A DNA stretch of 35,712 bases from positions 1 through 35,712 of the forward strand of contig CANIPU010000024.1 in NCBI GenBank assembly GCA_947469485.1, in the 5' to 3' direction. Below, in pieces: positions 3,392 through 35,712 of this stretch. The DNA comes from Chitinophagaceae bacterium (GTDB lineage: Bacteria; Bacteroidota; Bacteroidia; Chitinophagales; UBA10324). Position 1 is the stretch's first letter. Every line of letters begins with the position of its first letter. A program made the position numbers and the translations under genes. The notes beneath the pieces were generated by a model, which saw nothing but the letters and a program-made list of their open reading frames with translations, was not told the origin of the DNA and made no database searches.

Positions 3392-5374
3392 ATGAAGTTA
3401 ATGAAATTGTCCTCAATTATTCTTTTGCTTGCTTTTTACATGCAGGCTGGTGCCCAAACAACTAAACCGCTTTTCACTGTTGGAAATGAAAACATTGGTG
3501 TTGATGAGTTTCTGAATGTTTACAAAAAAAACAACATGGGAAAGGAGATCGACTACAGCGAAAACGCGGTAAGAGATTACCTGAATCTTTATATCAACTT
3601 TCGTGAGAAAGTGAAAGAAGCCCGTGATATGAAAATGGATACTTCTACTTCGGTAAATAATGAACTTTCTACCTACCGAAGCACTCTTGCTAAAAGCTAC
3701 TTAATTGATAAAGAAGTAACAGACCTTTTGGTGAATGAAGCTTATAACCGCTTAGGAAAAGAAGTTCATGTTGAGCACATTCTTGTAAAGTGCGATCAAA
3801 ATGCTGCTCCTGCTGATACCTTGAAAGCCTACTTAAAGGCCATGACCATTTACAATTTGCTCGTTAAAGGAAAAGACTTTAATAAAATGGCAAAAGACTC
3901 TTCCGGAGACCCAAGTGCCAAAGACAATGGCGGCGACCTTGGTTATATCACCGCTTTGCAGGTTGTTTATCCTTTTGAAAATGCTGCGTACAATACTCCT
4001 GTTGGCAAAATGAGTAAACCAATCCGTACCCGGTTTGGCTATCATATTGTAAAAGTTTTGGATGTTCGTACATCACGCGGTACAATTCAGGTTGAACACA
4101 TTTTTGTTAAATTAACAAAAAGCGCTACACACGATGATTCGCTAAAAGCAAAATCAAAAATTGATCAGATTTATCAGCGATTAACTGAAGGAGAAAGTTT
4201 TGAAGATATTGCTAAGGCAGAATCAGAAGATAAAACTTCTTCAGGAGAAGGTGGAAAATTACCTGCATTCGGAACAGGCAAAATGGTGCCTGATTTTGAA
4301 AATGCTGCATTTGCTTTAAAAAATGTTGGCGATTATTCGAAACCAATTTTAAGCAAGTATGGCTGGCATATAATAAAGCTCATTGATAAAGTTCAAACCC
4401 CATCATTAGATGCATACAGAGAAACATTGCGTAAACAAGTAGAGAAAGATTCCCGTTCAGAGGTTGCAAAAACTTCTTACATTAACAAGGCAAAAATCAA
4501 GTTCAATTTCAGTGAGAATAATGCTTCTAAAACAGAATTGTTTTCAAAAATGGATTCAAGCTTAATGAAAGGATTGTGGAAAGCTGATCAGGCTTCAGGT
4601 TTAAATAAAGTTCTTTTCTCACTAACTGACAATAATTTAAAACCAGAAGTAAAAAATTACACACAAGCTGATTTGGCTGATTTTATTGAAAAAAATCAGC
4701 GAAAGAACATGATGCCAAACGACAGAGCTATAATGTTTGGGAAAATGTATAATTCATTTGTTGAAAACAGTTTAATCAGTTTTCAGGAGCAAAGACTTGA
4801 TAGAGAATATCCTGCTTTTGCTGATCTTATGAAAGAATATATGGATGGTATTTTATTGTTTGAATTAACTGATCAAAAAGTCTGGTCAAAAGCTGTAAAA
4901 GATACAACAGGGTTGCGTTCATTCTACGCTGCAACGAAAGAAAAATATCCTGACGAGGAGAAAATTTCAATCAAAACTTACAATTTGAAAGATGGAGCTT
5001 CTTCTGCAGCATTCAACAAATTATTGGCGAAGGGAATGGATGACAATGCGATTAAATTAAAACTAAATAAAAAAGACAGCACTGCATTCAGCTTTGAAAC
5101 TAACACCTACAAACGATCTCAGTTTGAAAATGAAAATTCAGGCTTGGAATGGAAAATTGGTTCATCAAAAACCAATAATGGTGATAACGGAGCTGTTGAA
5201 ATTTTAAAGGTTATTAATCTAATTCCGGTTATGCCAAAACCTTTAGAGGAAGCACGAGGCTATGTTGTTGCAGATTTTCAGGAAAAATTAGAAAAAGACT
5301 GGATTCAATCACTTCGTGAAAAATATCCGGTATATATAAACGAAGATGTTCTGAGCAGCATAATCAAAAAGTAA
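3392..5374 (+). CDS. Periplasmic peptidylprolyl isomerase with two parvulin domains
   Basis: The 660-residue exported protein has a signal peptide (residues 1-21, cleavage near AGA-QTT), an N-terminal SurA-like helical region (about 25-120) and two tandem rotamase/PpiC domains (about 124-226 and 231-336). Each domain has the VEHI-(L/F)-VK opening strand, a GGDLGY- or GGKLPAFG-type loop and the F/W-G-Y/W-H-I-(V/I)-K closing strand. A long C-terminal part (340-660) has no domain I recognise. Parvulins of this type isomerise prolyl bonds and chaperone outer-membrane proteins in the periplasm. It is the first gene of a four-gene run; the next gene starts 3 bases after its stop, in the same frame. 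Orthology to PpiD, PrsA or SurA cannot be settled here. Confidence 0.9.
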   Translation: MKLMKLSSIILLLAFYMQAGAQTTKPLFTVGNENIGVDEFLNVYKKNNMGKEIDYSENAVRDYLNLYINFREKVKEARDMKMDTSTSVNNELSTYRSTLAKSYLIDKEVTDLLVNEAYNRLGKEVHVEHILVKCDQNAAPADTLKAYLKAMTIYNLLVKGKDFNKMAKDSSGDPSAKDNGGDLGYITALQVVYPFENAAYNTPVGKMSKPIRTRFGYHIVKVLDVRTSRGTIQVEHIFVKLTKSATHDDSLKAKSKIDQIYQRLTEGESFEDIAKAESEDKTSSGEGGKLPAFGTGKMVPDFENAAFALKNVGDYSKPILSKYGWHIIKLIDKVQTPSLDAYRETLRKQVEKDSRSEVAKTSYINKAKIKFNFSENNASKTELFSKMDSSLMKGLWKADQASGLNKVLFSLTDNNLKPEVKNYTQADLADFIEKNQRKNMMPNDRAIMFGKMYNSFVENSLISFQEQRLDREYPAFADLMKEYMDGILLFELTDQKVWSKAVKDTTGLRSFYAATKEKYPDEEKISIKTYNLKDGASSAAFNKLLAKGMDDNAIKLKLNKKDSTAFSFETNTYKRSQFENENSGLEWKIGSSKTNNGDNGAVEILKVINLIPVMPKPLEEARGYVVADFQEKLEKDWIQSLREKYPVYINEDVLSSIIKK

Positions 5375-33110: not shown

Positions 33111-34310
33111 ATGTATAGCATACAATCGCGCCTGCAAAAAGAACTGGATGAAATAAAAGCCAACGGCTTGTTTAAGAACGAGCGCATCATCACTTCGCCA
33201 CAGGGCGCTGAAATAAAAGTGAATGGTGTAACAGTGCTGAATTTCTGTGCGAACAATTACCTCGGTCTGTCATCGCATCCCAAAGTTATTACGGCGGCGA
33301 AGCAGGCGATTGATACACATGGATACGGCATGAGCAGTGTGCGGTTCATTTGCGGCACGCAGGATCTGCATAAAACACTGGAGCAAAAAACTTCGGAGTT
33401 TTTGGGTACCGAAGACACCATTTTATATGCCGCCGCATTCGATGCCAATGGCGGTGTGTTCGAACCTTTGTTCAACGAAGAAGATGCGCTCATAAGCGAT
33501 GAGCTGAATCACGCAAGTATTATTGATGGTGTACGACTCACTAAATCGCAGCGGCTTCGCTACAAGCATAATGATATGAATGACCTGGAAGAGAAACTGA
33601 AAGAATCATCCGGCGCACGAAGCAGAATAATTATTACCGATGGTGTGTTCAGTATGGATGGCACCATTGCGCAGTTAGATAAAATATGCGACCTCGCCGA
33701 TAAGTACAATGCCATGGTTATGATTGATGAATGCCACGCGAGCGGCTTTATGGGAAAAACCGGGCGCGGCACGCATGAGCACCGTGGTGTTATGGGGCGC
33801 ATTGATATTATTACCGGCACTTATGGCAAGGCGCTTGGCGGCGCATCGGGCGGTTTCACTTCAGGTAAAAAGGAAATTATTGAATTGCTTCGTCAGCGGT
33901 CGCGGCCATACTTGTTTTCGAATGCGCTTGCGCCATCTATCACAGGAGCTTCCATTGCCGTGCTCGATATGCTGAGCCAAACCACGGCGCTGCGCGATAA
34001 ATTAGAAGCGAACACAAAATATTTCCGCACAAAAATTACGGAAGCGGGTTTTGATATTAAGCCCGGCGAACATCCCATTGTGCCCATCATGCTGTACGAT
34101 GCCGTGCTGGCGCAAAAGTTTTCTGAACGACTGCTGCCCGAAGGCATTTATGCCATCGGGTTTTTCTTTCCGGTGGTGGCGAAGGGCAATGCGCGCATTC
34201 GTGTGCAGATAAGCGCCGCGCACGAGCAGCACCACCTCGATAAAGCCATTGCTGCTTTTACAAAGATTGGAAAAGAGTTGGGAGTGATTAAAGAGAAGGT
34301 GGGGGTGTAA
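33111..34310 (+). CDS. kbl: Glycine C-acetyltransferase (2-amino-3-ketobutyrate CoA ligase)
   Basis: Kbl cleaves 2-amino-3-oxobutanoate with CoA into glycine and acetyl-CoA, the second step of threonine breakdown after threonine dehydrogenase. The 399-residue protein (E. coli 398) is a PLP alpha-oxoamine synthase. It has [55 protein letters not shown] (D206, H209), and the PLP-lysine motif [13 protein letters not shown] (Lys240), followed by [15 protein letters not shown]. Close agreement with Kbl across the whole length makes KAS III-like, BioF or serine palmitoyltransferase roles unlikely. The tdh partner is not in the window. The coding sequence is visibly richer in G+C than the secreted-protein genes on either side. 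Confidence 0.95.
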
Positions 34311-34372
34311 TCCTGACTTTTGTATTATCTTTTCAGTCTACTATTTTTATAAGGACTTCTTAAAAAACCAAA

Positions 34373-35209
34373 ATGAAAAAAATAATTCTGTTTTGCTTTC
34401 TTGCTTTATTAATTGTTAGCTCAAAGCATGCCTTGGGTCAAATTACTCTTGAACATACTTATACAGGAGGATCCAAGAATTTTTTTATGGTGGATTTTGA
34501 GTTGTCGGGAATGAAGTATGTTTTAAAGAGCGAGGTTTCGGGAAATAGATTTCTGAAATTCTATAACCTTGATCATTCGTTCTGGAAGTCTATTGATTGC
34601 AATCCATTTCCAACAACTCAATTGCCAGCTGGCAGTGGAACTCAATATAATTTCGCTGCTATTTACATTTCAGAAACTCTTTTTGATTGTGATAGTGCGG
34701 TTGAATTCTTATACTTCTCTAATGGTGGCAATGATTGGTTTACGGGAATATTTAAAGAGGATGGAACAGCCCTTCTTGTTGCAGATAGTTCAGCTCCATT
34801 GGTTCAGGTTGCGATTCCACAACAATGGAGACCTATCTATAATACCCCTGATGGAACCAAACTCATCTTGTCTCATTTAGATGGAAGCGCAAGAGTGTAT
34901 GGTGTTCCATGTGAATTATCGTCGGGGATTGATAAATCAATGCGTCAACCATCAGATCCTTTTTTATCTGTTTTCCCAAATCCATCCTACTATCAAAATA
35001 CTGTTCAGTATTCTTTGCCCGATGGTATTAATGAAGCAGATATTATTCTCTTTGATTTAAGTGGTAAAGAACTTCGGCGATATCATGTTGACAGAACTTT
35101 TTCCGACCTTCAAATCTCTCAAAGAGATTTTCCTTCCGGAACATATATGTATTCATTAGTTTCGGGAAACAAGATTCTTGTTTCTCAAAAAATAGTATTG
35201 GTTAAATAG
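34373..35209 (+). CDS. Secreted protein with T9SS type A sorting domain, function unknown
   Basis: The 278-residue protein has a signal peptide (about 1-22, ALG-QIT). I do not recognise the body (23-195); it looks all-beta, with short strands, and contains LVQVAIPQQWRPIYNTPDGTKLILSHLDGSARVYGVPC. The sorting domain starts near 203 (LSVFPNPSYYQNTVQYSL), includes IILFDLSGKELRRYHV, and ends FPSGTYMYSLVSGNKILVSQKIVLVK. Proteins of this form in Bacteroidota are often small stand-alone surface proteins with very narrow distribution. It follows kbl by 62 bases and is followed directly by the palindromic repeat array. Confidence 0.8.
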   Translation: MKKIILFCFLALLIVSSKHALGQITLEHTYTGGSKNFFMVDFELSGMKYVLKSEVSGNRFLKFYNLDHSFWKSIDCNPFPTTQLPAGSGTQYNFAAIYISETLFDCDSAVEFLYFSNGGNDWFTGIFKEDGTALLVADSSAPLVQVAIPQQWRPIYNTPDGTKLILSHLDGSARVYGVPCELSSGIDKSMRQPSDPFLSVFPNPSYYQNTVQYSLPDGINEADIILFDLSGKELRRYHVDRTFSDLQISQRDFPSGTYMYSLVSGNKILVSQKIVLVK

Positions 35210-35237
35210 TTTATTCAATCTTTTTCCGGCTTCATGC

Positions 35238-35488
35238 CTTTTTTCTCAAAAGACCTGTCTTCCTTATAAAAAGACACTAAATCCCGAACAGATTACATGT
35301 GGCTAAAGCCACACCTTCATTGCCTGTTATCCGTTCGCTAAAGCGAACGGCAATTGATGAACAACAAATACATTTTCATTTGAATTTTTTTGAAAGACAA
35401 GTGCAACTCATCTATTGCCGTCTGCTTTAGCTGACGGAAAAAGAGAATTCAAAATGAAAATGGCTTTAGCCGCCTTCCGTTTACATCT
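35238..35488. repeat. REP/BIME-like repeat module, copy 1
   Basis: The module is about 251 bases long. It holds four palindromes sharing a GCTAAAGC or GCTTTAGC core. These are TGTGGCTAAAGCCACA (35298-35313), CCGTTCGCTAAAGCGAACGG (35331-35350), CCGTCTGCTTTAGCTGACGG (35418-35437, one stem mismatch) and GGCTTTAGCC (35462-35471). Between them, CATTTTCATTTGAATT (35371-35386) is nearly the inverse of AATTCAAAATGAAAATG (35446-35462). The first two palindromes carry the core in one orientation and the last two in the other, giving the alternating arrangement known for BIMEs. Confidence 0.85.
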
Positions 35489-35712
35489 CTTTTTTCTCAA
35501 AAGACCTGTCTTCCTTCCAAAAAGACACTAAATCCCGAACAGATTACATGTGGCTAAAGCCAGCTTCTTCATTGCCTGTTATCCGTTCGCTAAAGCGAAC
35601 GGCAATTGATGAACAACAAATACATTTTCATTAGAATTTTTTTGAAAGACAAGTGCAGCTCATCTATTGCCGTCAGCTTTAGCTGACGGAAAAAGAGAAT
35701 TCAAAATGAAAA
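35489..35712. repeat. REP/BIME-like repeat module, copy 2 (cut by the window end)
   Basis: This copy matches 35238-35460 at an offset of 251-252 bases, with roughly nine differences including one single-base indel. Palindromes are TGGCTAAAGCCA (35551-35562), CCGTTCGCTAAAGCGAACGG (35583-35602, identical to copy 1) and CCGTCAGCTTTAGCTGACGG (35670-35689, here a perfect stem). The expected GGCTTTAGCC element would fall just outside the window. Confidence 0.85.

Follow-up and report, generated by a model that had tools for sequence, protein, structure and literature searches.

The window, by which we mean the whole 35,712-nucleotide stretch of a Chitinophagaceae bacterium contig that was analysed (contig C24 of genome G000; G001 to G005 are the other genomes of the genus), encodes two proteins with Por_Secre_tail domains, which suggest Bacteroidota, and ends in a tandem array preceded by an aminotransferase gene. 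Tandem Repeats Finder placed one array in the window, at 35238–35712, with a period of 252, 1.9 copies and 96% matches, in line with the two head-to-tail modules of about 250 bases, about 96% alike, that an earlier note had described by eye. The GCTAAAGC core occurs seven times in the window versus 0.91 expected, a count reached in 0 of 100 shuffles; all occurrences fall within 35302–35683, four on the plus strand and three on the minus strand. Hairpins on a common core do face both ways, as the note had stated, but they do not alternate freely: in each module the order is A-forward, B-forward, B-reverse, A-reverse (F F R R). The features of the array are the following.

35226–35296, no strand: linker copy 1; the repeated core begins at 35238, and 54 nt are 94% identical to a REPIN-free site in G001
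35297–35471, no strand: REPIN copy 1, an inverted doublet of two-hairpin REP units in the order F F R R; the recurring part of the unit (query 60–234)
35300–35311, plus strand: A hairpin forward, copy 1, TGGC-TAAA-GCCA
35331–35350, plus strand: B hairpin forward, copy 1, with an 8-bp stem, the loop TAAA and then the foot CAAT
35418–35437, minus strand: B hairpin reverse, copy 1, with one stem mismatch; its foot is the ATTG just before it on the plus strand
35462–35471, minus strand: A hairpin reverse, copy 1, GGCTTTAGCC
35472–35547, no strand: linker copy 2, sharing with copy 1 an 88-nt repeat (REPIN edge included) at 92% identity
35548–35712, no strand: REPIN copy 2, truncated by the contig end and continued in contig C41 (exact 104-bp overlap)
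35551–35562, plus strand: A hairpin forward, copy 2
35583–35602, plus strand: B hairpin forward, copy 2
35670–35689, minus strand: B hairpin reverse, copy 2, with a perfect stem

The array unit had been taken for a 250-base compound element. It instead consists of a REPIN/BIME-like inverted REP doublet of about 175 bp, the part that recurs elsewhere, and a linker of about 75 bp that stands alone and single in a relative. Each REP half is made of two hairpins, a constant A (GGCTRAAGCC) and a variable B, the latter having an 8-bp stem of variable sequence and a TRAA loop followed by CAAT. Of 22 candidate units, 20 from five genomes of the genus were aligned, after a chance match within a gene and a truncated unit had been set aside. 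The A core is kept in the alignment, whereas both sides of the B helix vary in seven of the eight base pairs. Covariation in the B helix reached 0.375, a score equalled by none of 500 shuffles (0.102) and well above the slid controls (at most 0.061). REP units were picked partly by pairing, with at most one stem mismatch allowed, which inflates the pairing in this alignment. Further pair types in the helix numbered 12 versus 9.6, a weak measure on which 33 of 500 shuffles scored as high, and one of the eight pairs is unpaired in 8 of the 20 rows. The foot is CAAT (ATTG on the other strand) in 20/20 units rather than the canonical GT[AG]G and, as we read the arrangement, the feet point inwards in the window's genus. 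Besides these units, repeated motifs resembling AAAGATGCATCTT and GATTCTGATAAATCTG were seen by eye to fill intergenic DNA near the array (L009:181-600) and in a relative (L025:1480-1830).

Contig C24 stops at 35712 and the array runs up to this end. Extension past it, which the earlier note had recommended, is provided by contig C41, whose first 104 bp are identical to the final 104 bp of C24; with copy 2 truncated by the contig end and this overlap beyond it, the array holds at least two copies. In relative G003, DNA matching C41:1162-1500 lies directly behind the aminotransferase gene, which supports C24 and C41 as neighbours, although a different gene follows the array site in G001. An array that reaches a contig end and shares an exact overlap with a second contig might owe its second copy to misassembly. 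However, copy 2 departs from copy 1 at several positions and the C41 linker is different again; together with the G003 synteny, these differences make an assembly artefact highly improbable.

Further copies of the unit exist in the genome. Searched against G000, it gave eight alignments, on C24, C41, C8 and C29, and a model of the REP unit (R1) found 10 units confined to the same four contigs and mostly arranged as +/- pairs. Counting C24 and C41 as one, G000 carries the module at three extragenic sites, a small number of copies but the several-site distribution expected of REPINs or BIMEs, as are two REPs inverted around a spacer. The R1 scan covered 16 genomes of the family, with at most 150 candidates scored per genome. 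On this basis there are 10 units in G000, 7 in G001, 5 in G002, 0 in G003, 11 in G004 and 8 in G005. Among the six genomes of the genus, G003 is the one without units, and the other five each have a low copy number of 5–11. Beyond the genus, at the same limit of 150 candidates, the scan gave 5 units in G006, one each in G007 and G012 and 0 in the other seven genomes, and these matches are weak.

Comparison with relatives, also proposed earlier, revealed an empty site. In G001, a single linker without a REPIN lies behind the aminotransferase gene, whose protein is 98% identical, and an additional reading frame; this linker continues into CAAATCAGCAGCGGA. In G000, linker 1 leads into the REPIN, and the linker after the last REPIN, in C41, leads into the same CAAATCAGCAGCGGA; to the right of the linker the two genomes match over a short stretch of about 20 nt before they diverge. 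The REPIN-free state in G001 indicates that REPINs entered the site and that the linker DNA was duplicated with them; being single there, the linker looks like target-site DNA. The earlier reading of the array as a recent tandem duplication is judged right. A distinct subclass-1.2 tnpA, with hairpins of TTGTCCC type, lies behind the same aminotransferase gene in G005 (L125, C23:47173-49188); the end of that gene recurs as a direct repeat (114 bp, 88%) on the two sides of this tnpA.

There is no transposase gene around the array, as had been noted, but elsewhere in the genome one sits directly beside another copy of the module. A PF01797 search of G000 gave five matches, the best on C29 (15753-16094) and the others on C22, C8, C40 and C10. 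The C29 gene (C29:15741-16181) encodes an IS200-like protein of 147 aa, and a module starts within 3 nt of its stop codon. Within 700 nt upstream we found no module and only one 5-bp TRAA hairpin, so that no left end is seen in this interval. The C29 protein scores 63.4 bits with the NCBIfam IS200 model (cut-off 55) and 44 bits with the RAYT model (cut-off 80), and it has a Y---Q--HH motif instead of Y---NP; its assignment as a RAYT was rejected. A RAYT search, as the earlier note had advised, did return a RAYT, on C8 (118.6 bits, cut-off 80), but the gene directly beside the module is the subclass-1.2 tnpA. The proposed tie of REP/BIME-like modules to an IS200-like tyrosine transposase therefore stands, and the RAYT identity of that transposase does not. 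By eye, the C8 RAYT gene is ringed by palindromes of its own, of CGATTGCAAATCG type (L010:4480-5330).

Y---Q--HH is present in all 12 family members, with H54, H56, Y114 and Q118 kept in 12/12, W94 likewise in 12/12 and Q95 in 90% or more. The C29 TnpA matches the solved transposase 2xm3 (E 8e-16), which we take to be ISDra2 TnpA, and the ISHp608 transposase 2a6m. The Y---Q--HH signature places it in TnpA_Y1 subclass 1.2, described as low-copy, generally without terminal IS200 structures and without IS features (Quentin et al. 2018, PMC6006769); the table row for this subclass in that paper gives 148 aa and has 'no' where other rows list REP types. G000 gave one subclass-1.2 tnpA match and no second copy was found. 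In G005, a TnpA 88% identical to that of C29 is encoded at C83:3520-3960 with a module behind the gene at 3967-4149. This contig opens with the final part of the gene that lies upstream at C29, which indicates at least the same neighbourhood; the distance from the end of that gene to tnpA is about 3.2 kb in G005 versus 59 bp in G000, and similarity between the two loci begins at the ATG. Between the REPINs behind these two genes (L031:1948-2120 in G000, L032:1948-2126 in G005), the outer arms look exchanged, with identities of 0.82 and 0.86 crosswise versus 0.78 and 0.83 in the direct comparison, while the central spacer aligns directly; conversion between inverted REPs is a possible, weakly supported explanation. 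G004 has a relative of the TnpA (49%) with upstream hairpins of the same two-part layout but another stem, and in G003 neither REP units (R1) nor such a tnpA were found. G001 and G002 contain REP units, yet their closest TnpA is only 38% and 33% identical, respectively, which speaks against a subclass-1.2 partnership unless the gene was lost or left unassembled; another enzyme may also be at work.

An alignment-based scan of 84,980 species genomes yielded at least 567 relatives of this transposase. The best 80 of these, ranked by likeness to the query, and the 12 family loci made up a survey set of 92 loci (L031-L122), with Cyanobacterial members lying outside it; tnpA was placed by match coordinates in L074, L081, L090, L094, L111 and L112 and by choice between two frames in L052 and L057. 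Y---Q--HH was present in 89/92 TnpA proteins and Y---NP in 0/92, at a median length of 148. Perfect hairpins (stem of at least 7, loop of 3–5) were concentrated on both sides of the gene: 125 within 500 nt downstream, in 63/92 loci (2.88/kb), and 117 within 500 nt upstream, in 55/92 loci (2.60/kb), versus 0.11/kb (downstream) and 0.15/kb (upstream) at 1.5–2 kb and 0.12/kb in shuffles. Among hairpins with a 4-nt loop within 600 nt, 154/182 had TRAA or its complement TTYA. TRAA-type hairpins numbered 158 in 105.5 kb near tnpA versus 6 in 161.5 kb far from it; the 135 in 47.6 kb beside tnpA (2.839/kb) compare with 3 in 19.7 kb (0.152/kb) in 91 other intergenic regions of the same 92 loci, a density about 19 times higher. 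The nearest TRAA/TTYA hairpin was reverse upstream in 34/40 loci and forward downstream in 35/44. A REPtron would have inverted REPs on either side of its transposase gene; TRAA hairpins stand both upstream and downstream of tnpA within 600 nt in 32/92 loci and are inverted in 25 of these 32, while the tnpA of the window's own genome has its module only downstream.

A qualifying hairpin lies within 500 nt of tnpA in 76/92 loci, at odds with the published absence of REP-like structures from subclass 1.2. By type, 53 loci have TRAA hairpins, 16 have hairpins with a 3-nt loop, 7 have another hairpin and 16 have none in that interval, whatever the loop size. Against a general link, a TRAA hairpin of at least 7 bp within 600 nt is absent from 39/92 loci, and these 16 loci count the same way. 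The four bases after 75 B-type hairpins were CTAT in 19 cases, CAAT in 14 and CTAC in 4, the rest being scattered; read on the other strand, where the foot precedes the stem, these are ATAG, ATTG and GTAG. A companion hairpin in the same orientation stood before B 28 times, 24 of them at about 36–50 nt, and after B 4 times, so genomes outside the window's genus share the two-hairpin plan. The record titles of TRAA-hairpin loci name Bacteroidota, Acidobacteria, Ignavibacteriae, Calditrichia, Chlorobiota, Cloacimonadota, Neomarinimicrobiota, Verrucomicrobia and Geotalea, though many of these records are metagenome-assembled genomes and single taxon assignments may be wrong. Another branch of subclass 1.2 (L035, L040, L041, L042, L104 and L109) has dense arrays of hairpins with stems of about 7 bp and 3-nt loops, and in L058 eight tandem hairpins of CGCAGGCTGAAGCCTGCG type follow tnpA at a spacing of about 38 nt. 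Direct repeats of at least 40 bp span tnpA in 31/92 loci versus 1/127 control positions, some of them including the tnpA 3' end; because many of these repeats are REP arrays, no mechanism such as long target duplication is claimed from them.

Hairpin type and stem follow the transposase lineage. Among the 50/92 loci with an 8-bp TRAA hairpin, TnpA identity correlated with stem similarity (Mantel r 0.33, p 2e-4), the largest of 5000 permutations reaching 0.195. Mapped onto a quickly built tree of TnpA, the TRAA label required 11 changes versus 29.9 when shuffled (0/500 as low) and the 3-nt-loop label 10 versus 14.9 (0/500), and three changes suffice between the two types. The labels 'none' (13 changes, 46/500 as low) and 'other' (7 changes, 500/500) did not clearly cluster on this tree. 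Since relatedness alone clusters such labels, these results indicate association with the TnpA lineage, not recognition.

The hairpins are also dispersed. Pattern CCNNNGGTTRAAACCNNNGG, which accepts imperfect palindromes, gave 108 matches, some of them the tnpA-flanking copies, in 8/10 genomes that we chose from the survey, while the reversed control gave 1 in all ten. All eight genomes with hairpins of the searched type in the tnpA flanks had matches; the genomes of L076 and L096, whose tnpA flanks are without that type, had zero. Flavobacterium denitrificans (L093, G020) alone had 40 matches, 26 of them, as read from the list, in inverted pairs within 100 bp (11 reverse-forward and 2 forward-reverse), a prevailing order unlike that in the window. 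The ten genomes have 1–7 matches each to the subclass-1.2 profile, so the pairing of hairpin with gene rests on adjacency.

The modules could in principle be ordinary REPINs mobilised by the genome's RAYT, a class 2 TnpA_REP, for among the four PF01797 matches besides the C29 gene the one on C8 is a RAYT with three REP units about 0.9 kb away. The palindromes around the C8 gene are of a different type, however; C22, C40 and C10 are without REP units in the R1 scan (at most 150 candidates scored per genome), and the module stands immediately behind the subclass-1.2 gene in both G000 and G005, all of which leaves a RAYT as the responsible enzyme quite improbable. If tnpA and its flanking hairpins instead formed a plain IS200-type insertion sequence, with the modules as solo ends or MITE-like internal-deletion derivatives, one would understand why inverted hairpins flank tnpA in many loci, as in the IS200/IS605 layout, and why the C29 protein exceeds the NCBIfam IS200 cut-off. 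The unequal distances of tnpA from the upstream gene in G005 and G000, with similarity starting at the ATG, also suggest that the exact insertion site may differ. Against this, the G005 gene shares at least the neighbourhood of the G000 gene, the paper defining the subclass reports low copy number and no IS features (PMC6006769), and G000 gave a single tnpA match; we regard such an element as unlikely.

It is also conceivable that the palindromes act as RNA, as terminators or mRNA stabilisers, and are unrelated to transposition. They sit behind genes and can fold as hairpins, and RNA-level roles are named for REPs in passages of PMC2817692 and PMC12306157. No Rfam family reaches its gathering score within 34300-35712, however, and the units occur in both orientations and as inverted doublets. 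Such a role would also leave unexplained the roughly 19-fold density beside one transposase family relative to other intergenic DNA of the same loci and the tracking of transposase lineage by stem and loop type. A purely RNA-level role is thus very unlikely, while a secondary one is possible.

We conclude that the array is very probably a tandem cluster of REPIN-like non-autonomous elements belonging to the TnpA_Y1 subclass-1.2 transposase at C29:15741-16181. With the module, its three sites in the genome, its place behind tnpA, the empty site and the link between subclass-1.2 genes and hairpins all legible in the sequence, the REPINs appear to be mobile. Homology to solved IS200/IS605-type transposases and the conserved HuH, Tyr and Gln residues suggest that TnpA would act on single-stranded DNA by binding the hairpins once they have folded; on one strand it may read the TRAA/TTYA loop together with the ATTG/ATAG foot. 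Cutting and rejoining by the enzyme would then spread REPINs in trans, a reaction put forward for TnpA_REP and established for IS608-like TnpA. The combination of a fixed loop and a free stem suggests that shape, loop and foot are read, and contacts to the stem are possible as well because stems follow the TnpA lineage. At the array, a REPIN may have landed behind the secreted-protein gene, after which slippage, unequal recombination or the transposition reaction would have produced a tandem duplication of the REPIN with about 75 bp of flank.

Taken by itself, the array is an ordinary tandem REPIN cluster; what is new is the transposase lineage behind it, through which REP-like partners become apparent for a subclass tabled as having none. 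More broadly, we lean slightly towards viewing subclass-1.2 TnpA and TRAA hairpins, spread over nine phylum-level groups by record titles, as a third palindrome–transposase partnership beside IS200/IS605 and RAYT/REP, in which a class 1 transposase settled in genomes as an enzyme of low copy number and, separately from the RAYTs, retained or acquired two-hairpin REPs of its own. REP work so far has dealt largely with proteobacterial RAYTs. If subclass-1.2 enzymes own REPs, REP systems extend to Bacteroidota and other groups, and the passage from single-strand transposases to resident enzymes with dispersed palindromes may have occurred more than once. The design, with a fixed loop on one strand, a freely varying paired stem and a short foot, is a direct hypothesis of recognition, and cultured strains such as F. 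denitrificans with its 40 pattern matches make it testable.

In an open-access literature search, no link between subclass 1.2 and REPs was found among the matches listed. In a search with the motif letters, only PMC2817692 among the matches listed concerns REPs, judged by title, and the passages of a Chryseobacterium paper that mention RayT are unrelated to palindromes. How the link could have been missed is suggested by PMC6006769, where the automatic REP search required a GT[AG]G foot; this may explain the published 'no', GTAG feet making up only 4/75 here.

With REPINs and BIMEs, as presented in parts of Bertels and Rainey 2011 (PMC3116915) and Nunvar et al. 2010 (PMC2817692), the modules share the inverted REP doublet with a spacer, the several extragenic sites, the tandem clusters that include flanking DNA and the cluster beside a transposase gene. 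PMC3116915 already describes REPINs clustered in tandem 'including the flanking sequences' for Pseudomonas fluorescens SBW25; in this respect the 250-base compound unit is not unusual, contrary to the earlier note. Unlike REPINs and BIMEs, the REPs here have two hairpins each (constant A, variable B with a TRAA loop), an ATTG/ATAG-like foot instead of GT[AG]G, a low copy number, feet pointing inwards in the window's genus and an adjoining transposase of another class. The GTAG and CGTC REP families share short perfect stems, small loops and inverted dimers with the present hairpins; a table in PMC3733652 lists the GTAG families with a transposase association and the CGTC families without one, and the CGTC tag was not seen here. 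The RAYT/TnpA_REP REPtrons, in the sections of PMC6006769 and PMC8266576 that treat them, resemble our loci in having a Y1 transposase, flanked in some of our loci by inverted palindromes, a low gene copy number and palindromes that vary together with the protein. The present proteins differ from RAYTs in their Y---Q--HH rather than Y---NP motif, their length of about 148 aa and, for C29, a score under the RAYT cut-off. IS200/IS605 elements (IS608 and ISDra2; subclass 1.1) have a homologous catalytic core and, as in many of our loci, palindromes on both sides of tnpA, but no multi-copy IS behaviour was seen in G000, and the palindromes described here are found at a distance from tnpA, too, as doublets in their own right. 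The proteins agree with TnpA_Y1 subclass 1.2 (PMC6006769) in Y---Q--HH, WQ, the length of about 148 aa, the occurrence in Bacteroidetes and the low copy number; unlike the 'no' REP type in the table of that paper, 76/92 members here have a qualifying hairpin.
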